From Kosakonia cowanii JCM 10956 = DSM 18146 (GTDB lineage: Bacteria > Pseudomonadota > Gammaproteobacteria > Enterobacterales > Enterobacteriaceae), in NCBI RefSeq assembly GCF_001975225.1, contig NZ_CP019445.1:2046001-2110000 (forward strand): a stretch of DNA of 64,000 nucleotides. Direction: 5' to 3'. A program made the position numbers and the translations under genes. The notes under the pieces were generated by a model, which was given only the letters and a program-made list of their open reading frames with translations, was not told where the DNA came from and searched no databases. Below, in pieces: positions 41,180 to 49,960 of this stretch. Position 1 is the first letter of the stretch. Each line of letters starts with the position of its first letter.

Positions 41180-41398
41180 TTATTCGTGGAACTGTCCGCG
41201 CGGCATAATATTCACCGTTTCGTGCAGTTCTGACCATACCAGAACGGCCTCGCCGCGCTGCAATTGCCGTTTTACGTCGGCGACCTTTTGTTCAAGCGAA
41301 CGCTCATGTTCACCATAATCGGTGCCTTCGCGCAAGACAAAGCTCTCAATCAGATTGTCGAGCGTGTCGGCGTCGAGTTCTTGCCACGGAATAATCAT
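41180..41398 (-). CDS. yheU: Small conserved protein YheU (UPF0270)
   Basis: A 72-residue protein beginning [29 protein letters not shown], the UPF0270 family. No known function. Its ATG overlaps the yheT stop by 4 bases (ATGA). Confidence 0.93.
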
Positions 41399-42414
41399 GA
41401 TGCTCCCAGATAAGCGGATAACCAGTCCGGAATGCGCGTTTCAAGCCACATCTCCGGGCGACGCAGCGTGCCGCCGACAAAGCCGACGTGCCCGCCATGT
41501 TCCGTCAGTTGATACTCAATATTAGCGGGTAATTGCGCAAGATCGGGGATGACGTGATGATCCATAAACGGATCATCCTTGGCGTGAATGATAAGCGTCG
41601 GTTTACGAATCTGCGGCAGCAGCGGCATAGCGCTACAGCGGCGATAGTAATCAAGTGCATCGTCGAAGCCGTGGATTTTCGAGGTGATCACATCATCGAA
41701 ATCGCGAATGCGCCGCATTTTACGCAGCACTTCCATGGTTGTTGGCAGCGAGCCGGGATAGGCGCGCAGTTTCCGCGCGGCATTGGCCTTCAGCAGGTTG
41801 AGCAAATAACGCTGATAAACGCGCGTGAAGCCCTTATCCATATGATAACTGCACGCTTCCAGCACCAGCGGGGCCGAGACAATCACCGCCGCATCGAGGG
41901 GCAGAACGTCATCCGCTTTCGCCAGCAGGCAGCCGAGCATATTCCCGCCCAGCGAATATCCCACCGCCGCGGTCGGCGCCTCGCCAAGCTCCTGACGCAG
42001 CCAGGTGAGAAACCAGGTGCCGTCCTCTGTTTCGCCGGAGTGATAGATGCGGTTCAGGCGATTCGGGATCCCACTACAGCCGCGAAAATGCATCACTACG
42101 CCCAGCCAGCCGCGCTGTTTCGCCGCATTGATCAGGCCGTGCGCATAGGGGCTGTGCAGGCTGCCCTCCAGGCCATGAAACACCACCAGCCGCGGTTTAT
42201 GCCGCGCCTGATTCGGCTCTTCGCTCCACGCGAGATCGACAAAATCCCCGTCCGGCAGTTCAAGGCGCTGCCACCAGGGTTCAAACGCGACGCGACGGCG
42301 TATAAGACGCGGCAGCATGGTCTGAAGATGTGGGTTGCTTGCGCCACGCATCGGTTGGAAGGTGGAGGCAACGCGTTGATCTGCATCGAGAAGTGCAGGT
42401 GTAATTTCTGCCAT
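41395..42414 (-). CDS. yheT: Alpha/beta hydrolase YheT
   Basis: A 339-residue alpha/beta hydrolase. The nucleophile elbow is [10 protein letters not shown], with HGLEGS as oxyanion segment and HGGHVGF carrying the catalytic histidine. Substrate unknown. In E. coli it directly neighbours yheS; here a 5.6-kb accessory block separates the two. Confidence 0.92.
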
Positions 42415-42587
42415 TTCATCAAAATAGGTAGGTAAATAGGCGGTTATTATACTTGCTAATAATTGGCCTGTTTAATACTTTGCTGCTGTTGTACCGTATT
42501 GACCCACTAAGGCAGCGGCAAAAAGACGTATTACAACCCACGCTGACACTGCGCCTGCCTGCAATTTCACCTTCAAGGACACTTATT

Positions 42588-43700
42588 ATGACGGACATTA
42601 CTTCGTCTGGCCTGACGGCAGCGCAGCCATTAAATGATTTGCCGCAGACGGATAATTTAACCCCCGAGCAGCAGACGCAAATCCAGGCGATTGTTAAAGA
42701 GATCGATATTTACGATCCGGCCTATTCGCTCGGTTTCGGTGCGAAAACCATGCAAACGATGTCGCAATTCTCTGATTCCCTCATGCAGCAAGTGCGGGCA
42801 AAAGATGCGGGCGTCATCGGTGCGCAACTTACCGATCTCCTGCAAAAAATTAAGCAGGTTGATATTAGCGCCTTTGAGCAAAAGCCGGGTTTTCTGGCCT
42901 CGCTACCCTTCGTGGGATCGATCTTTAACCGCATTGAGCGCACCATGCTGGAGTACAAAACGCTTTCAGCTCAGGTGGAAGATATTACGGATAAGCTGAA
43001 TAACGCGATGGTCGACCTGCTGCGTAATATCTCGACGCTGCAGATCCTGTTTGAGCGCAACCGCGATGTTTTCCAGCAAATTACCCTGCACGTTATCGCC
43101 GGTAAGCAACGACTGGAGCAGATAAAACAGGAAGAGCTGCCCGCTCTGCAAGCGCAGGCCGCGTCCGATCCGATGATTGCCCAGCGCGTGCGTGACCTGC
43201 TCGACGGTATTTCGCGTTTTGAGCGTCGTCTGCATGATTTGATGCTGTCGCGCACCATTGCTATGCAGAGCGCGCCGCAAATCCGCCTGATGCAGAGCAA
43301 CAGCCAGTCGCTGGCGGAAAAGATCCAGAGCAGCATTCTCTCCACCATTCCGGTGTGGAAAAACCAGATTGCCTTATCGCTCTCTTTGCAGACCCAGCGC
43401 CAGGCAGCGAAGCTGCAAAAAGAGGTTGCTGATACCACTAATGACCTGCTGCGCCGCAACGCCGAGATGCTGCAGACCGGTACAATTGAGACCGCCCGCG
43501 AAGTCGAGCGCTCAGTGGTGGATATCGAGACGCTGCGCGATGTGCAGTCACGCCTGCTTAACACCATTGAAGAGTCCGTGAAGATCGCGACCGATGCACG
43601 CCAGCGCCGTCAGGAAGTGGAAAAAGAGCTGGGCACGATGGAAACCGATCTGCGCATGCGCCTTGCTGCCATCGCCAGCGGTAATCAGGCACAGGCCTGA
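42588..43700 (+). CDS. telA: TelA/toxic anion resistance family protein
   Basis: A 370-residue, largely helical protein of the TelA (PF05816-type) family, with the characteristic segment IQAIVKEIDIYDPAYSLGFGAKTMQTMSQFSDSLM and long coiled coils. TelA proteins were named for tellurite resistance on plasmids, but their biochemical role is unknown, and no ter genes lie here. AAGGA precedes the ATG at 42588; an in-frame reading to 42453 lacks similarity. The next gene follows after 14 bp, so the two form an operon. Confidence 0.86.
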   Translation: MTDITSSGLTAAQPLNDLPQTDNLTPEQQTQIQAIVKEIDIYDPAYSLGFGAKTMQTMSQFSDSLMQQVRAKDAGVIGAQLTDLLQKIKQVDISAFEQKPGFLASLPFVGSIFNRIERTMLEYKTLSAQVEDITDKLNNAMVDLLRNISTLQILFERNRDVFQQITLHVIAGKQRLEQIKQEELPALQAQAASDPMIAQRVRDLLDGISRFERRLHDLMLSRTIAMQSAPQIRLMQSNSQSLAEKIQSSILSTIPVWKNQIALSLSLQTQRQAAKLQKEVADTTNDLLRRNAEMLQTGTIETAREVERSVVDIETLRDVQSRLLNTIEESVKIATDARQRRQEVEKELGTMETDLRMRLAAIASGNQAQA

Positions 43701-43714
43701 GTCAGGAAAAGAGA

Positions 43715-44680
43715 ATGAGCAATAAAATTACTGACGCACTGGATAAAATCTACAGCAACCGCGTAAACCGGGTCATTATTCAGATCGTCCTCTGCTTCCT
43801 GGGATTCATTTATGGCAGCCAGAAAGCGAAAGAGGTGCTCGATCCATCTGATGTTCCTGTGCTAATGCAGATCCTGGCATGGTGCAGTTTTGTCTTGCTG
43901 GCTCGCACACTCTTTTATGATCGCATTGCGCTGGGAATAGGTGCCTTCGCAGGCTTTGTCTGGCTGATGTTTTACGATGCAGCGACGATGCCATTTGCTG
44001 CGGGCACGGCCGCGATGGTGGTGCACGCTTACCGAAGCCGCTACTCGCTGGGACGCATTCATGTCTGGTATCTGTTTGTGTGGCTATTTGCGGCAACGGC
44101 GTACGCCAACGTTAATGGTGCCTTTTCAACGGTATTGGGCTTGTTGTTCTGGTTTATCCTGATTGGCGGCATAGTGTTTCGCAAAATACACCTCAAGCGC
44201 CAGGCGCGCGAAGCACACGAACTTGAGCTGCACATTGCGCATATGGAAAAGCTTAAGCAAGCTAGCCAAAACCCCGTTGAGGAACCGTCATCGCTCGAGC
44301 AGCAAATCTATCGGCTGGTAAATAAGTACACCTTACCCGATACGCTGGTTGTTCATCTGAAAGGCATTGTCACACTGGCAGAAAAGATCCTGCAGTGCAT
44401 GAAGTCTGATCCCAGAGATGTTGGGCCGGGGAGGCGTTTTCTTGAGCGCTATTTGCCGCTTCTGGAAAAGATTGCCGCCAGGGGGCAGATACTTTCCGAA
44501 CAACTCAGTGACGAGGCGCAACGGCAAAAGGCGATAACAGAGCTGGCGGTAGTGCTTGAACGCGTTGAGCGCGCGTTTATGCAGCAGCATCAGGCTCTGC
44601 TGGAGAATGACTCGCTTGATTTAGACGCGGAGTTACTGACCTTAGACAATATGCTGAAAGCGGATGGCTTCGGTAAATAA
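43715..44680 (+). CDS. XpaC-family (BCIP-hydrolysis-named) membrane protein
   Basis: A 321-residue protein. Residues about 18-160 hold around five hydrophobic segments; the rest is a soluble helical domain with RFLERYLPLLEKIAARGQILSEQ, the signature of the XpaC/5-bromo-4-chloroindolyl phosphate hydrolysis family. The enzymatic name comes from an early Bacillus observation and no mechanism is established. XpaC-like and TelA proteins are often encoded together, as here, suggesting a joint membrane function. Confidence 0.8.
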   Translation: MSNKITDALDKIYSNRVNRVIIQIVLCFLGFIYGSQKAKEVLDPSDVPVLMQILAWCSFVLLARTLFYDRIALGIGAFAGFVWLMFYDAATMPFAAGTAAMVVHAYRSRYSLGRIHVWYLFVWLFAATAYANVNGAFSTVLGLLFWFILIGGIVFRKIHLKRQAREAHELELHIAHMEKLKQASQNPVEEPSSLEQQIYRLVNKYTLPDTLVVHLKGIVTLAEKILQCMKSDPRDVGPGRRFLERYLPLLEKIAARGQILSEQLSDEAQRQKAITELAVVLERVERAFMQQHQALLENDSLDLDAELLTLDNMLKADGFGK

Positions 44681-44714: not shown

Positions 44715-45437
44715 TTAGCTGTCTGCCAGCAGGTTGCGCGAAAAGAGGTGGATATCAACATCCGCTTTACGTCGCCACAAACGGGCTTTCCGCGCGCCGG
44801 TCGCCACGCTCTCCCCGGTCTCTTCAAACATGCCGGAGGCTTCAAAACGGCGGATCAGGCTTTTGCGCTGAATCGGCTGGCCGAGAATGATCTCCGTCGC
44901 TTCCTGCAGCTGGCTCTGCGTAAAGGTCTCAGGCAAACAGTAAACGGGCAGTAACGAATACATCGTTTTCTGCCGCAAGCGGCGCAGCGCGGCGTGGATT
45001 ATCTCGCCGTGATCGAAGGCCAGTTCGCGCTCATTAAGTTCGGCCACCGGCACCCATTTAGCATCGCTGACGCTTACGATATGCGGCGCGCAGGCGACCC
45101 ACGAAATAAGCGCATACCAGGCAACGGTCAAACTCCAGCCGCGCGGATCGCGATCCGGGCCGGAGAAGGTATCCAGCTGTTCAAGCCACGAGGGCGAGAC
45201 GCCGGTTTTTTCCGTCAACTTGCGCAGCGCCGTGGCGCGGGTAGAGCTATCCTGCGCCATATCAATAAAGCCACCGGGCAATCCCCAGCGCCCTTGTTGC
45301 GGCTGGCTGGCGCGCTCGACCAACAACACGCAGAGCGTCTGCTGATGCAGGCTAAACAGCACGCTATCGACCGTCACCAGCGGCGAGGGAAAACGACTCG
45401 GATCGTAAGAATCCAGATACTCTGCTTCGCTGATCAT
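44715..45437 (-). CDS. nrtR: NrtR-type Nudix transcriptional regulator
   Basis: A 240-residue protein with a Nudix domain (about residues 20-145) and a C-terminal winged helix (about 150-225: LPETFTQSQLQEATEIILGQPIQRKSLIRRF). The Nudix box is degenerate: RKLTEKTG replaces REUxEExG, so hydrolysis is probably lost, as in NrtR repressors of NAD metabolism, which bind ADP-ribose as effector. It is divergent from a Prs-like gene and nadV, the usual NrtR targets. ATG at 45437 is preferred over a GTG one codon earlier. Confidence 0.88.
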   Translation of the reverse strand: MISEAEYLDSYDPSRFPSPLVTVDSVLFSLHQQTLCVLLVERASQPQQGRWGLPGGFIDMAQDSSTRATALRKLTEKTGVSPSWLEQLDTFSGPDRDPRGWSLTVAWYALISWVACAPHIVSVSDAKWVPVAELNERELAFDHGEIIHAALRRLRQKTMYSLLPVYCLPETFTQSQLQEATEIILGQPIQRKSLIRRFEASGMFEETGESVATGARKARLWRRKADVDIHLFSRNLLADS

Positions 45438-45565
45438 CACTGACTCACCTCATTTCACACGCAGCAAGTTTATCAGCCTACCCTGGTGCGGCAAGCGAAC
45501 TTTTATTTTATGTATTTTCAGTGTCTTATATATTCAGTATAAAAATAATCCAGACAGGGGCTTGC

Positions 45566-45592
45566 TTAATAGTGTCTTATGGACAATATTAA
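45566..45592. promoter_or_regulatory. Candidate NrtR operator
   Basis: Half-sites TTAATAGTGTC (45566-45576) and GACAATATTAA (45582-45592) are inverted repeats over 11 bp with one mismatch and a 5-bp spacer. The site overlaps a possible prs-like promoter (TTGCTT at 45562). The 10-mer AGTGTCTTAT inside it recurs as a direct copy at 45520-45529, 51 bp away. Position between nrtR and its likely target operon supports a shared operator; no binding was tested. Confidence 0.7.
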
Positions 45593-45630
45593 ATGTGTCC
45601 AAGGGACATTAACTAATGCAGGTGAGGTGA

Positions 45631-46494
45631 ATGATGGCGAGCAGAATCGAACTCTTTATCGATAATCAAAACGTTGAAATCGAAAACGGCGTATTTCCCG
45701 ATGGTGCAGTGTGGCTGAAAGTGACGGGCGAACTGCCTGCTTTCGCCCAGCTGATGCGTATCCGTGTCGCCGCCATGCGCGATATGAATGATTTTATGCT
45801 GCTGGCACAGCTGGTAGACGCGGTACGCCACGTTACTGATGTTACGGTTAGCCATCTGCAGCTCGCCTGGCTGCCGTGGGCACGTCAGGATCGCCATATG
45901 GTGGCGGGCGACAGCTTCGCGCTGAAAGTCTTCGCCAACCAGCTCAATACCCTGAACTTCGATAAAGTCTTTATTCTCGATCCCCACAGCGATGCCGCCG
46001 CAGCCGCGATTAACAACTGCGTCGCCATTCCTCAGGAAACCTGCCTGCTGCAGAGCGAGACGCTGCGCCGCGCCATTGCGCAGGGCGAACTGATGCTGGT
46101 GGCTCCGGACGCGGGCGCGCTGAAAAAAATTCACAACGTGGCGAAAGCCACCGGCGCGAAGAATTACGCCATTCTCACTAAAGAGCGCGATGTTGCCAGC
46201 GGTAATCTGACCGGCTTTGCGCTGGTGGCCGGTGAGGTGGCGGGGAAAGATCTGCTGATTGTCGACGATCTCTGCGATGCGGGCGGCACCTTTATTGGCT
46301 CGGCGCAGGTTCTGCGTGAAGCAGGTGCGCGCAGCGTCAGCTTGTATGTTACGCACGGTATCTTCTCGAAAGGCGTTGAAAACCTGCTCAATAACGGGAT
46401 TGACGCTATCTACACCACCACTTCGTTTACTTCGCCGACGCTGGCTTCACCGGGCGTTGAACTGATCGACATCGCCACGTTATTTCGCGCTTAA
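45631..46494 (+). CDS. Ribose-phosphate pyrophosphokinase-like protein
   Basis: A 287-residue member of the PRPP synthetase family, shorter than housekeeping Prs (about 315). Motifs: PWARQDR (ATP-binding), ILDPHSD (metal-binding DxH), KERD (flexible catalytic loop K-x-R) and the PRPP loop VDDLCDAGGT. It starts an operon with nadV (12-bp gap). Known alternatives: a Prs paralogue making PRPP for NadV, or an ADP-ribose pyrophosphate synthetase like the phage NARP1 enzyme, which belongs to the same fold. Sequence alone does not decide. Confidence 0.86.
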   Translation: MMASRIELFIDNQNVEIENGVFPDGAVWLKVTGELPAFAQLMRIRVAAMRDMNDFMLLAQLVDAVRHVTDVTVSHLQLAWLPWARQDRHMVAGDSFALKVFANQLNTLNFDKVFILDPHSDAAAAAINNCVAIPQETCLLQSETLRRAIAQGELMLVAPDAGALKKIHNVAKATGAKNYAILTKERDVASGNLTGFALVAGEVAGKDLLIVDDLCDAGGTFIGSAQVLREAGARSVSLYVTHGIFSKGVENLLNNGIDAIYTTTSFTSPTLASPGVELIDIATLFRA

Positions 46495-46506
46495 GGGGAC
46501 CACACC

Positions 46507-47997
46507 ATGAAACTGAATCCGATTCTCGCCATCGACGGCTATAAAGTTTCGCACCGCGTACAGTATCCGCAGGGCACAACAAAGGTTTACTCCAACTTCA
46601 CGCCGCGCAGCGACCGCTTTTTCCAGTCTCCGGTTGCCGACGGTAAGCTGGTCTTCTTCGGCCTGCAGGGTTTTCTGAAGTGGTTTATGGTCGATCTCTT
46701 CAACGACGCCTTCTTTGCCCGCCCGGAAGAGGAGGTGGTGAATGAGTACAAAGAGGTGATGGACAGCTACCTCGGTAAGGATAGCGTGGCGGTCGATCAT
46801 ATCCGTGACCTGCACCGTTTAGGTTACTTGCCGCTGCACATCAAATCGCTGGATGAGGGGAGCAAAGTACCGATGAAGGTACCGGTGCTGACCATCACCA
46901 ACACCCGTGAGGAGTTCTTCTGGCTGGTGAACTATCTGGAAACGGTGCTCTCCGCGGAGTTGTGGAAAGCCTCGACTAACGCCACTATCGCGCACCACTA
47001 CCGCAAAATTTGTGAGCAGTGGGCAGCGAAAACCTGTAGCGACCTCTCGCACCTGGATTTCCAGTGCCACGACTTTTCGTTCCGCGGCATGGCGGGTCTG
47101 CACGATACCGCACAGGCGGGCGCGGGTCACCTGCTGAGCTTTAAAGGCACCGATAGCATCCCTTCGCTGCTTTATGCCCGCGATTTCTACACTGGGGGCG
47201 AGGAGTACTTTATCGGCGCAAGCATTCCGGCGACCGAGCACAGCGTGATGTGTATGGGCGAGCATGAGCACGAAATTGAGACCTTCCGCCGCCTGATTGC
47301 TGATATCTATCCGCAGGGCTTTGTCTCCATCGTCTCCGATACCTGGGATTACTGGCGCGTGATTACTGAATATACCCGCGAGCTGAAATCGCTGATTCTG
47401 GGACGTGAAGGACGCGTCGTTTTCCGCCCGGACAGCGGTGACCCGGTTGAGATCCTTTGCGGCACCGGCGCAGATGACGACACGAGTGCCGATCGCAGCC
47501 CGGAGGAGAAAGGTTCCGTTGAAGTGCTGTGGGAGATTTTCGGCGGCACCGTTAACGAGAAGGGTTACAAGGTGCTGGATCCGCATGTCGGCCTGATTTA
47601 TGGCGACTCAATTACGCTGGCGCGCGCGAATCAAATTCTCTCGCGGCTGGAAGCCAAAGGTTTCGCCAGCTCCAACGTGGTCTTCGGCGTCGGCTCTTTC
47701 ACCTACCAGTACAACACCCGCGACACCTTCGGCTTTGCGATGAAGGCGACCTGGGGCGCGGTGAATGGCGAAGGCCGAATGATCTTTAAAGAGCCGAAAA
47801 CGGATAACGGCCTGAAACGCTCAGCGCGCGGTCTGTTACGGGTTGAGCGCGATGCGCAGGGCGAACTGCAACTGCACGATGAGCAAAGCTGGGAGCAGGA
47901 GCAGGGCGGGGAGCTAAAAACCCGTTTCCTCGATGGCAAGCTGTACGACACCGAGCACTTTGAGACCATTCGCCAGCGGCTGGCTAACCAGCGTTAA
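46507..47997 (+). CDS. nadV: Nicotinamide phosphoribosyltransferase (NadV/NAMPT type)
   Basis: A 496-residue protein clearly of the NAMPT family (MKLNPILAIDGYKVSHRVQYP; VYSNFTPRSDR; DFSFRGMAGL; VSIVSDTWDYW; FRPDSGDP). NAMPT makes NMN from nicotinamide and PRPP, a one-step salvage bypassing deamidation. AAGGGG precedes the ATG. The closest alternative is a nicotinamide ADP-ribosyltransferase of the same family, which would use ADP-ribose pyrophosphate and give NAD+ directly. E. coli K-12 lacks this gene. Confidence 0.92.
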   Translation: MKLNPILAIDGYKVSHRVQYPQGTTKVYSNFTPRSDRFFQSPVADGKLVFFGLQGFLKWFMVDLFNDAFFARPEEEVVNEYKEVMDSYLGKDSVAVDHIRDLHRLGYLPLHIKSLDEGSKVPMKVPVLTITNTREEFFWLVNYLETVLSAELWKASTNATIAHHYRKICEQWAAKTCSDLSHLDFQCHDFSFRGMAGLHDTAQAGAGHLLSFKGTDSIPSLLYARDFYTGGEEYFIGASIPATEHSVMCMGEHEHEIETFRRLIADIYPQGFVSIVSDTWDYWRVITEYTRELKSLILGREGRVVFRPDSGDPVEILCGTGADDDTSADRSPEEKGSVEVLWEIFGGTVNEKGYKVLDPHVGLIYGDSITLARANQILSRLEAKGFASSNVVFGVGSFTYQYNTRDTFGFAMKATWGAVNGEGRMIFKEPKTDNGLKRSARGLLRVERDAQGELQLHDEQSWEQEQGGELKTRFLDGKLYDTEHFETIRQRLANQR

Positions 47998-48055: not shown

Positions 48056-49960
48056 TTACTCCGCTGTAAGCATCGCCTCAAGGTGTTCCTGCGCGTCGAG
48101 CCACGCCATTTCACACTCTTCAAGACCCGCTTTCGCCGTCGCCTGCTGTTGCAGGCAGGTGGTCAGCTCCGCTTTACGGCTCTGGTCGTACAGACCGCTG
48201 TCGCTAAGCTTCTCTTCCGCGTTGGCCAATTGCGCATTGAGCTTCTCCATCTCCTTTTCCAGACGGGCAATCTCTTTACGCAGCGGCTGTGTTTGCGTGC
48301 GCAGCTCCGCTTCACGACGCTTCTGATCTTTACGCGCTTGAGCGCTGTTACCATTCTCTTTTGCCGCGTCCGTCGGCTGGCTCTCCTGCTTCTGCACATC
48401 GCTCAGCCACTGCTGGTAATCATCCAGATCGCCATCGAACGGCTCCACTTTGCCATCGTGCACCAGGTAGAGATCGTCGGTAGTCGAGCGTAAAAGGTGA
48501 CGGTCGTGTGATACCACTACCAGCGCGCCTTCAAATTCAATCAGCGCGTCGGTGAGTGCCTGGCGCATATCGAGATCGAGGTGGTTGGTCGGTTCATCGA
48601 GCAGCAGCAGGTTCGGGCGCTGCCAGACGATCAACGCCAGCACCAGCCGTGCTTTTTCGCCGCCGGAGAAGCGCTCTGTTGCTTCGGTGACCTTATCGCC
48701 CTGGAAGCCGAAGCCGCCCAGGTAATCACGCAGCTTCTGCTCCAGCTCTTGCGGGGCCAGGCGGGCCAGATGCTGCAATGGCGATTCATCGGCGCGTAAA
48801 AATTCCAGCTGATGCTGGGCGAAGTAACCAAGTTTGATCCCCTTCGCCAGGCCGATTTCGCCGCTCTGCGCCGCCAGCTCGCCCGCCAGCAGTTTAATCA
48901 GCGTCGATTTACCGGCACCGTTACGCCCCAGCAGACCGATACGTGAGCCAGGCACCAGGTTGAGTTTGATGGCGTTCAGAATAGTGCGATCGCCATAACC
49001 GGCGCTCACTTTCTCCATCTTCAGGATCGGGTTGGGCAGGCTTTCCGGCGCGCGGAAGCTGAAGTGGAACGGGTTATCAACATGCGCGGGGGCAATCAGC
49101 TCCATGCGCTCCAGCATCTTGATGCGGCTTTGCGCCTGCTTCGCTTTACTCGCTTTCGCTTTGAAGCGATCGATAAAGCTTTGCAGATGGGCAACGCGCT
49201 GCTGCTGGCCTTCATAGGTGGCCTGCTGCTGCGCAAGCCGCGTAGCGCGCTGGCGCTCAAACGAGCTGTAGTTGCCGGTGTATTCAAACATTGATTGCTG
49301 CTCAATGTGCAGGATCTTATCGACTACCGGATCGAGAAAATCGCGGTCGTGCGAGATAAGGATCAGCGTGCCCGGATAGTTCTTCAGCCACTTCTCCAGC
49401 CAGATAACGGCATCGAGATCGAGGTGGTTGGTCGGTTCATCAAGCAGCAGTAAATCGGAGCGGCAAATCAGCGCCTGCGCGAGGTTTAAACGCATACGCC
49501 AGCCGCCGGAGAAGGCGCTGACCGGGCGGTCGAGCTGCTCGTTAGAGAAGCCTAAACCGTGCAACAGGCTGGCGGCGCGGGAGCGCACTGTCCAGGCGTC
49601 GATAGCGTCGAGCTTGCCGTGTACCGTGGCGATAGCATTGCCGTCATTGCGCTCGTTGGCAGCATTAAGCGCCGCTTCCAACTGGCGATATTCACGATCG
49701 CCGTCTATCACATAATCTATCGCCGCTTCGTCCAGCGCCGGTGTTTCCTGGTTGACCCACGCCAACTGCCAGGTGCCAGGGAAAGTGGCACTGCCGCCAT
49801 CAGCGCTTATCTCGTTTTTCAACAGCGCGAGCAGGGTCGATTTGCCGCAGCCGTTTTTACCCACCAGGCCCACTTTCTGGCCCGGATTGATGGTGGCTGT
49901 GGCGTTGTCCAACAGGACACGCACGCCGCGACGAATTTGTAACGAGGAGAAAACAATCAT
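48056..49960 (-). CDS. yheS: ABC-F family ATPase YheS
   Basis: A 634-residue soluble protein with two ABC ATPase domains: Walker A GLVGKNGCGKST and GLLGRNGAGKST, signatures SAFSGGWRMRLNLAQ and RFSGGEKARLVLAL, Walker B LLLLDEPTNHLDL twice. A C-terminal coiled coil is rich in Glu/Lys/Gln. ABC-F proteins act on the ribosome; YheS is one of four in E. coli. Divergent from kefG. Confidence 0.94.
   Translation of the reverse strand: MIVFSSLQIRRGVRVLLDNATATINPGQKVGLVGKNGCGKSTLLALLKNEISADGGSATFPGTWQLAWVNQETPALDEAAIDYVIDGDREYRQLEAALNAANERNDGNAIATVHGKLDAIDAWTVRSRAASLLHGLGFSNEQLDRPVSAFSGGWRMRLNLAQALICRSDLLLLDEPTNHLDLDAVIWLEKWLKNYPGTLILISHDRDFLDPVVDKILHIEQQSMFEYTGNYSSFERQRATRLAQQQATYEGQQQRVAHLQSFIDRFKAKASKAKQAQSRIKMLERMELIAPAHVDNPFHFSFRAPESLPNPILKMEKVSAGYGDRTILNAIKLNLVPGSRIGLLGRNGAGKSTLIKLLAGELAAQSGEIGLAKGIKLGYFAQHQLEFLRADESPLQHLARLAPQELEQKLRDYLGGFGFQGDKVTEATERFSGGEKARLVLALIVWQRPNLLLLDEPTNHLDLDMRQALTDALIEFEGALVVVSHDRHLLRSTTDDLYLVHDGKVEPFDGDLDDYQQWLSDVQKQESQPTDAAKENGNSAQARKDQKRREAELRTQTQPLRKEIARLEKEMEKLNAQLANAEEKLSDSGLYDQSRKAELTTCLQQQATAKAGLEECEMAWLDAQEHLEAMLTAE

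Follow-up and report, generated by a model that had tools for sequence, protein, structure and literature searches.

Does the three-gene block at positions 44,715 to 47,997 of the stretch analysed here serve ordinary nicotinamide salvage, or does it rebuild NAD+ from ADP-ribose (ADPR)? The stretch, hereafter the window, comprises 64,000 nucleotides of Kosakonia cowanii JCM 10956 = DSM 18146 (contig NZ_CP019445.1, positions 2,046,001 to 2,110,000), whose genome is 4.86 Mb in 3 contigs. A first-pass annotation had described a Nudix regulator with a degenerate catalytic box, divergent from genes for a 287-aa protein of the phosphoribosyl pyrophosphate (PRPP) synthetase (Prs) fold and a 496-aa protein of the NAMPT fold. 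All three open reading frames (ORFs) were verified, and their Pfam domains and the Nudix box agreed with that description. Very probably, as predicted from sequence, the block encodes NAD+ reconstitution pathway 1 (NARP1) on the chromosome and places it under a repressor that senses ADP-ribose, with the two enzymes acting as an ADP-ribose pyrophosphate synthetase (Adps) and a nicotinamide ADP-ribose transferase (Namat). The gene order, the clamp and signature residues, the partnership of the genes, and the conservation and uniqueness of the operator were observed; the chemistry and the release of NrtR would follow what is known from relatives. We infer that these particular proteins perform NARP1 chemistry, as we infer the physiological source of ADP-ribose. 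The features are listed below in window coordinates; 12 bases separate the adps-like from the namat-like gene, and nrtR diverges from both.

44715..45440, minus strand: nrtR, 241 aa, GTG start; winged-helix repressor with a Nudix domain (Pfam NUDIX, 51.8 bits; NrtR_WHD, 49.9 bits)
45573..45585, no strand: predicted operator half 1, TGTCTTATGGACA, a perfect TGTC-N5-GACA
45596..45608, no strand: predicted operator half 2, TGTCCAAGGGACA, a perfect TGTC-N5-GACA, starting 23 bp after half 1
45631..46494, plus strand: adps-like gene, 287 aa; Pfam Pribosyl_synth/Pribosyltran; predicted ADP-ribose pyrophosphate synthetase, annotated as ribose-phosphate pyrophosphokinase
46264..46293, plus strand: DDLCDAGGTF segment of the adps-like gene, where the genome's own Prs has the loop DDMIDTGGTL
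46507..47997, plus strand: namat-like gene, 496 aa; Pfam NAPRTase and NAMPT_N; predicted nicotinamide ADP-ribose transferase, annotated as nicotinate/nicotinamide phosphoribosyltransferase
46600..46623, plus strand: clamp loop TPRSDRFF with R37, the R40-equivalent arginine, from the alignment with SPbetaL1 Namat
47692..47724, plus strand: clamp helix motif GSFTYQYNTRD, which fits the published Namat consensus (PMC12774641)

Clamp and signature residues of the two enzymes

The 496-aa protein matched PDB entries 9w5w/9w5x best (568 bits), followed by 9ke8 (457 bits), and the remaining listed NAMPT chains scored 222 bits or less; the matched 9w5x stretch resembles SPbetaL1 Namat. Among named relatives, its nearest counterpart is that of Kosakonia cowanii, at 98% identity. 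Namat is defined by a clamp, which consists of a helix motif (GSX-phi-X-phi-X-phi-TRD) with aromatics stacking on adenine and of a loop Arg, Lys or Tyr (PMC12774641). The window protein carries aromatics at positions 3 and 7 of its helix motif, and its R37 aligned with R40 of SPbetaL1 Namat. When the 20 NAD+-contact residues listed for SPbetaL1 Namat in PMC12774641 were compared, 19 were identical; the sole mismatch, Ser for Ala362, also occurred in 89 of the 98 proteins that bear the clamp, a set with many close relatives. At the three main clamp positions, 16 NAMPT-type proteins had G or E, then K, Q, E or another residue, and mostly N. The window protein lacks the GG-LLQ--NRD-type motif found in proteins related to solved NAMPT chains, that of Xcc among them. 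Some clamp-bearing proteins had histidine at an aromatic position (GSFTYQHVTRD in Shewanella, GSHTYQYVTRD in genome G270), and so did DyoEdafos Namat at motif position 7, an enzyme for which a passage of PMC13232231 reports NAD+ formation in vitro.

For the 287-aa protein, a phage-Adps profile built from 7 phage proteins was compared with a Prs profile trained on 30 Prs. The score difference (phage Adps minus Prs) was +134 bits for the window protein and +99 to +176 bits for Namat-linked bacterial proteins, 90/90 of which favoured phage Adps; it was -383 to -447 bits in the 30 Prs of the training set and -31 to +1 in 10 PRK07199-type paralogues. The window protein also scored 271.5 bits against PHROG 619, versus 192.2 for the genome's own Prs. 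At 12 columns separating other bacterial Adps from Prs, it agreed with Adps at 9, with Prs at 1 and with neither at 2; among the 120 cells of the 10 PRK07199-type controls, the Adps letter was found 33 times and the Prs letter 23 times. The signatures DLHAxQIQGF, DKRR and D[TS][GA]GT[LMI] of the sampled Prs were absent, and the window protein reads DPHSDAAAAA, TKERDVASGN and DAGGTF instead. In Prs, the loop corresponding to the last of these holds the 5'-phosphate; its equivalent in other bacterial Adps is mostly DDICDGG-TF.

In the trees, a branch with 100% SH-aLRT support set Prs apart, and NAMPT was likewise set apart by a branch with strong support. The ICP1 Namat frame (L200), which is shortened and whose motif ends in TCD, was used as is, one frame broken by stops (L119) was excluded from the tree protein sets, and the close relatives from the protein search (best 120 of 1,762) were not used. 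Approximately unbiased (AU) tests rejected nesting of the 287-aa protein in gammaproteobacterial Prs (p 9e-6) and of the 496-aa protein in the sampled bacterial NAMPT (p 1.5e-5).

Partner genes, regulator and double operator

In an order sample of 394 genomes, the 496-aa protein had a relative (E <= 1e-30) in 39, and the surroundings of all 39 were examined in stretches of 5.7-16 kb. When the clamp motif was present, an Adps gene was near in 13/13 loci and a full NrtR gene in 12/13, the exception being G270, whose contig ends 1.25 kb past adps; when the motif was absent, Adps and NrtR were each found in 0/26 loci within the examined stretches (one flank shorter than 2 kb in four). A class sample of 369 genomes gave 10 matches at E <= 1e-60, three of which overlapped the order sample, so that seven genomes were added. 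One of them (G702, GAYTYQYLTRD, with both aromatics) had Adps and NrtR genes; the other six were NAMPT-type without Adps, and one of these (G1012) had a weak 68-bit match to the Nudix profile. G702 was counted as non-clamp and the G1012 match as NrtR, both choices weighing against the hypothesis. Counted in this way, Adps accompanied 13/13 clamp-bearing versus 1/33 other genes (Fisher p 1.4e-10), and NrtR 12/13 versus 2/33 (p 2.9e-8).

Eighty named loci, the best 80 of 576 relatives and hence biased towards the query, cover Pseudomonadota, Bacteroidota, Verrucomicrobiota and Planctomycetota. Both aromatics were present in 80/80 (GG for GS in two), an Adps gene in 78/80 and an NrtR gene in 76/80; the four without NrtR are truncated by the end of the contig on one side or both. 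NrtR was found in 0/7 phage loci examined. An eighth record, L004 ('Acinetobacter phage MD-2021a'), was left out; it resembles a bacterial chromosome contig (fepC, TauE and homocysteine methyltransferase genes), and its Adps-Namat should therefore not count as phage-borne.

The window NrtR scored 225.5 bits against NCBIfam NF050029, 'ADPR responsive transcriptional repressor', under the family cut-off of 400, and its closest PDB match was 3gz5/3gz6 (227 bits). The catalytic Nudix box consensus contains REUXEEXGU; the box of the window NrtR is degenerate (GFIDMAQDSSTRATALRKLTEKT), as in the other listed proteobacterial partners. The NrtR partners of two Bacteroidota loci (L084, L090) have a box nearer the catalytic consensus (RELQEET, RELHEEA), and these NrtR might therefore also hydrolyse ADP-ribose. 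In two Shewanella-type loci (L177, L178), an NrtR gene is followed by Adps-type and Namat-type genes, and two TGTC-N5-GACA sites are present; the L178 NrtR was identical to the 3gz5 chain at 220/237 residues (93%). Rodionov in 2008 and Huang in 2009 are said to have reported that ADP-ribose releases S. oneidensis NrtR from DNA, with the operon read as PRPP and nicotinamide metabolism. According to passages of PMC6800001, 3GZ6 is the S. oneidensis NrtR-DNA complex and M. smegmatis NrtR leaves DNA upon ADP-ribose. An entry in PMC3223726 places Shewanella NrtR under 'Nicotinamide utilization', and a section of PMC11535050 reports that an active NAD-degrading toxin (NAD-phosphorylase) derepresses NrtR-controlled pncB1 in P. 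aeruginosa.

The two TGTC-N5-GACA sites at 45573-45608, the predicted palindromic operator of NrtR, had gone unmentioned in the first-pass annotation; they lie 58 to 23 bases ahead of the start codon of adps. Their 23-bp spacing is about two helical turns and thus suggests two repressor dimers on the same DNA face. They are the only such sites in the window (0.63 expected; 10/100 shuffles reach two), and even with one mismatch allowed the pair occurs just once in the genome, with zero matches for the reversed pattern. The pair was present in 33/33 enterobacterial loci, whose 344 kb contained no further pair; when six genera were aligned, the eight fixed bases per site were invariant and the flanks drifted. 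A fixed interval ahead of the called start of adps contained one site or more in 32/33 enterobacterial loci, in 15/55 other bacterial loci (shuffles: mean 0.16, max 2) and in 0/7 phage loci. A sigma-70 promoter scan of the region found no promoter.

In the proposed circuit, NrtR would occupy the double operator between nrtR and adps at rest, and the operon would be off. When NAD+ is cleaved into ADP-ribose and nicotinamide, ADP-ribose would bind the Nudix domain and NrtR would leave the DNA. Adps would then pyrophosphorylate ADP-ribose using ATP, and Namat would couple the ADP-ribose pyrophosphate to nicotinamide, yielding NAD+ in two steps in all and consuming the inducer. Because the pathway removes ADP-ribose, the circuit would reset itself.

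The block is flanked by yheT (41395-42414) on one side and yheS (48056-49960) on the other; these names, like kefG and prkB for other window neighbours, are ones we assume from gene order. Among 33 enterobacterial loci (Enterobacteriaceae, Yersiniaceae, Erwiniaceae), yheT was near in 27, yheS in 21, both in 15 and at least one in 33/33. These loci thus share the site, with altered borders. In the window, TelA-family and XpaC-like (Halogen_Hydrol) genes at 42453-44680 separate yheT from nrtR, an arrangement also seen in 2/33 related loci (L014, L016). A family sample of 246 genomes had an intact Namat-type gene in 23, a broken copy in one and a NAMPT-type gene in 3. A near-match search for the operon gave no match among complete E. 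coli genomes.

Rival readings and sources of ADP-ribose

Several results weigh against the reading of the block as a regulated NARP1. The AU tests kept the enterobacterial 287-aa group as the deepest branch beside all 22 Prs (p 0.635) and the 496-aa group as the deepest branch beside all 14 NAMPT (p 0.576), the constrained tree being slightly better than the quick-search tree for both. The phylogeny proposed in the first-pass annotation as a check thus disposed of nesting within gammaproteobacterial Prs or bacterial NAMPT (p about 1e-5) and left a basal grouping with all Prs and all NAMPT standing. Since the tests allow this basal grouping, the tree is not decisive and is used here only against nesting; the case rests on residues, profiles and partners. 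SPbetaL1 Namat also converts PRPP to nicotinamide mononucleotide (NMN) (PMC12774641), and the NadV of S. oneidensis MR-1, presumably of the Namat-like type, significantly raised NMN in E. coli according to a passage of PMC6095924; NMN formation may therefore be a genuine second activity. Overexpression of the endogenous nadV in S. oneidensis changed NAD(H) and nicotinamide use little, as an excerpt of PMC6128845 has it, which fits a missing co-substrate, though it is a negative result only. NrtR controls ordinary salvage genes elsewhere, as the same section of PMC11535050 describes for P. aeruginosa. A perfect TGTC-N5-GACA was absent upstream of adps in 40/55 other bacterial loci, including every Bacteroidota locus examined (no search for other motifs was made); NrtR motifs differ between taxa, according to part of PMC5343134. 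Finally, two same-genus genomes are without the operon, which is thus dispensable. One of them (G193, L221:10374-10613) retains an 80-residue C-terminal namat remnant next to an xpaC-like gene, with yheS some 8 kb away.

One rival reading is ordinary nicotinamide salvage, in which the 287-aa protein would make PRPP from ribose-5-phosphate, the 496-aa protein would make NMN, and NrtR would use ADP-ribose as a gauge of NAD+ turnover. The current annotations of both enzymes favour it, as do the P. aeruginosa regulon, the NMN raised by S. oneidensis NadV, the PRPP activity retained by Namat in vitro and the basal positions allowed beside Prs and NAMPT. We nevertheless consider it unlikely. The genome already encodes a housekeeping Prs (L007) and a second NAPRTase-family gene, the Prs signatures have given way to Adps-type residues in the 287-aa protein, and the NadV of H. 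ducreyi, which yields NMN in E. coli according to passages of PMC6095924 and PMC7384224, lacks the clamp aromatics (GAQTYQRNTRD). PRPP supply for salvage had been the simpler reading in the first-pass annotation; the clamp, the profile and the partners now favour NAD+ rebuilding over it.

Pasteurellaceae-type NadV (L179-L185 and L256, including that of H. ducreyi pNAD1) is nearer Namat than classical NAMPT and is without the clamp aromatics. Family f9 (Pasteurellaceae; L180 is 81% identical to H. ducreyi NadV) contributed 8 sampled genes, which fell on the Namat side of the tree, with five kept after thinning. The motif was GAQTYQ-NTRD in 7 and GSRTYQTHTRD in 1, and neither Adps nor NrtR was near any of the 8. 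This type is an apparent return to NMN synthesis. Because f9 lies on the Namat side without the aromatics and H. ducreyi NadV makes NMN, function is to be read from the clamp and the partner genes and not from the clade alone.

That the block is an anti-defence module left behind in the chromosome by a phage, with no host role, is very improbable. Relatives are frequent in phage records (1,937 and 1,484 matches for the two proteins, NAMPT- and Prs-type included) and the patchy occurrence in the family sample would suit it, but yheT or yheS, or both, stand near every enterobacterial locus, a dedicated regulator and operator are retained across genera with the clamp intact, and the phage loci have neither NrtR nor the operator. 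A third alternative keeps the NARP1 chemistry and the switch and changes the job: the operon would recycle NAD+ and clear ADP-ribose from ADP-ribosylation or RNA repair, rather than help the cell survive NADase immunity. We regard this as possible though somewhat doubtful, and its likelihood overlaps with that of the predicted NARP1 block itself. It draws on NADAR, ADP-ribosylglycohydrolase, PARG or KptA genes, found in 5/15 Bacteroidota loci (the gap and flanking ORFs were scanned, and several loci are incomplete), and on a Macro gene in a Verrucomicrobiales locus (L070). However, no such gene was among those identified around the window operon, the genome carries an Avs5-type NADase, and the neighbours scanned in other lineages varied and seldom had an ADP-ribose link (MTHFR, 2OG-Fe(II) oxygenase, NT5C, pentapeptide repeats, DUF2971).

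The Bacteroidota gene sets agree with ADP-ribose as the input of the predicted pathway. Two loci (L068, L088) have NADAR and ADP-ribosylglycohydrolase genes; a third (L073) has PARG, NADAR and ADP-ribosylglycohydrolase genes, with no Adps gene within its stretch. KptA and metallophosphoesterase genes occur in L077 and L089, and a metallophosphoesterase gene without NADAR, ADP-ribosylglycohydrolase, PARG or KptA in L075, L084 and L087. A DUF4291 gene, whose product may act on ADP-ribose derivatives, recurs in L073, L088 and L089. In G270, the Adps-Namat pair has an RNA ligase gene (L186:681-1514) within a few kb.

The K. cowanii genome also encodes a 775-aa Avs5 homologue (L255:5105-7432; match of 1409 bits) with a SIR2_2 domain and a weak nSTAND3 match, a defence type that depletes NAD+. 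It is linked to the operon solely by sharing the genome. No TIR-type NADase was found in the genome by PF13676 (TIR_2). In infected cells, Avs5 of P. aeruginosa lowered NAD+ threefold and raised ADPR from ~1.8 to 3 uM, with a return of both to baseline within minutes (a passage of PMC12931631); this modest and transient rise is a further point against the regulated NARP1 reading. The ADP-ribose-induced NAD+ rebuilding envisaged by the first-pass annotation has thus gained from the clamp residues, the Adps signatures, the partners, the conserved operator and the Shewanella anchor, and its NADase-immune trigger is still a guess, with Avs5 not tied to the operon. ADP-ribosylation turnover and RNA repair, hinted at by genes of some Bacteroidota operons, are equally good candidates for the source of ADP-ribose as NADase immunity is. 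Immune recovery as the operon's main job in this genome has an even chance at best.

Known systems and meaning of the operon

Bacterial NARP1 itself is already published (PMC12774641). The chromosomal Adps-Namat pair of Paenibacillus foliorum (Lan 2026, PMC12774641) resembles that of the window; it makes NAD+ in vitro, and its authors left its physiological role open. On chromosomal NARP1, its authors refer to Tesson 2024. Unlike our reading of the window, PMC12774641 mentions NrtR nowhere, and in the open-licence PMC literature no paper was found linking NrtR to NARP1, Namat or Adps. Phage NARP1 (Adps-Namat; SPbetaL1, DyoEdafos, ICP1 NrsAB) shares with the window two genes of these folds lying side by side or nearly so, the Namat clamp motif and the Adps-type signatures. 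However, the divergent NrtR gene and double operator of the window's chromosomal locus were found in 0/7 phage loci. The Shewanella NrtR operon (3gz5/3gz6), judged from the loci of the close NrtR relative, has NrtR, Adps and Namat genes and TGTC-N5-GACA sites like the window, but its NrtR gene is co-directional, not divergent. In the ARG-centred systems of PMC9503650, a Nudix repressor is likewise proposed as an ADP-ribose sensor beside ADP-ribose-handling genes; unlike in the window, Prs- or NadV-type genes are not named for them in section 3.8 of that paper.

We lean, without strong conviction, towards a broader claim taken as a whole: the NrtR-prs-nadV operons long classed as nicotinamide salvage, among them probably the S. 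oneidensis operon with the structurally solved NrtR, would be a widespread substrate-induced NARP1 in which the repressor's ligand is the first enzyme's substrate; some Bacteroidota operons would make that substrate from ADP-ribosylated molecules, and phages would have taken both enzymes without the sensor.

If the regulated NARP1 reading is true, bacterial NARP1 would gain a signal and a switch, and the operon family would move from vitamin salvage to the repair of NAD+ damage. NrtR would answer to ADP-ribose because ADP-ribose is the substrate of the pathway under its control. The reading would also suggest that phages may have acquired their counter-defence by capturing a repair pathway of the host, and it predicts that hosts with the operon would recover from NADase effectors, their own included.

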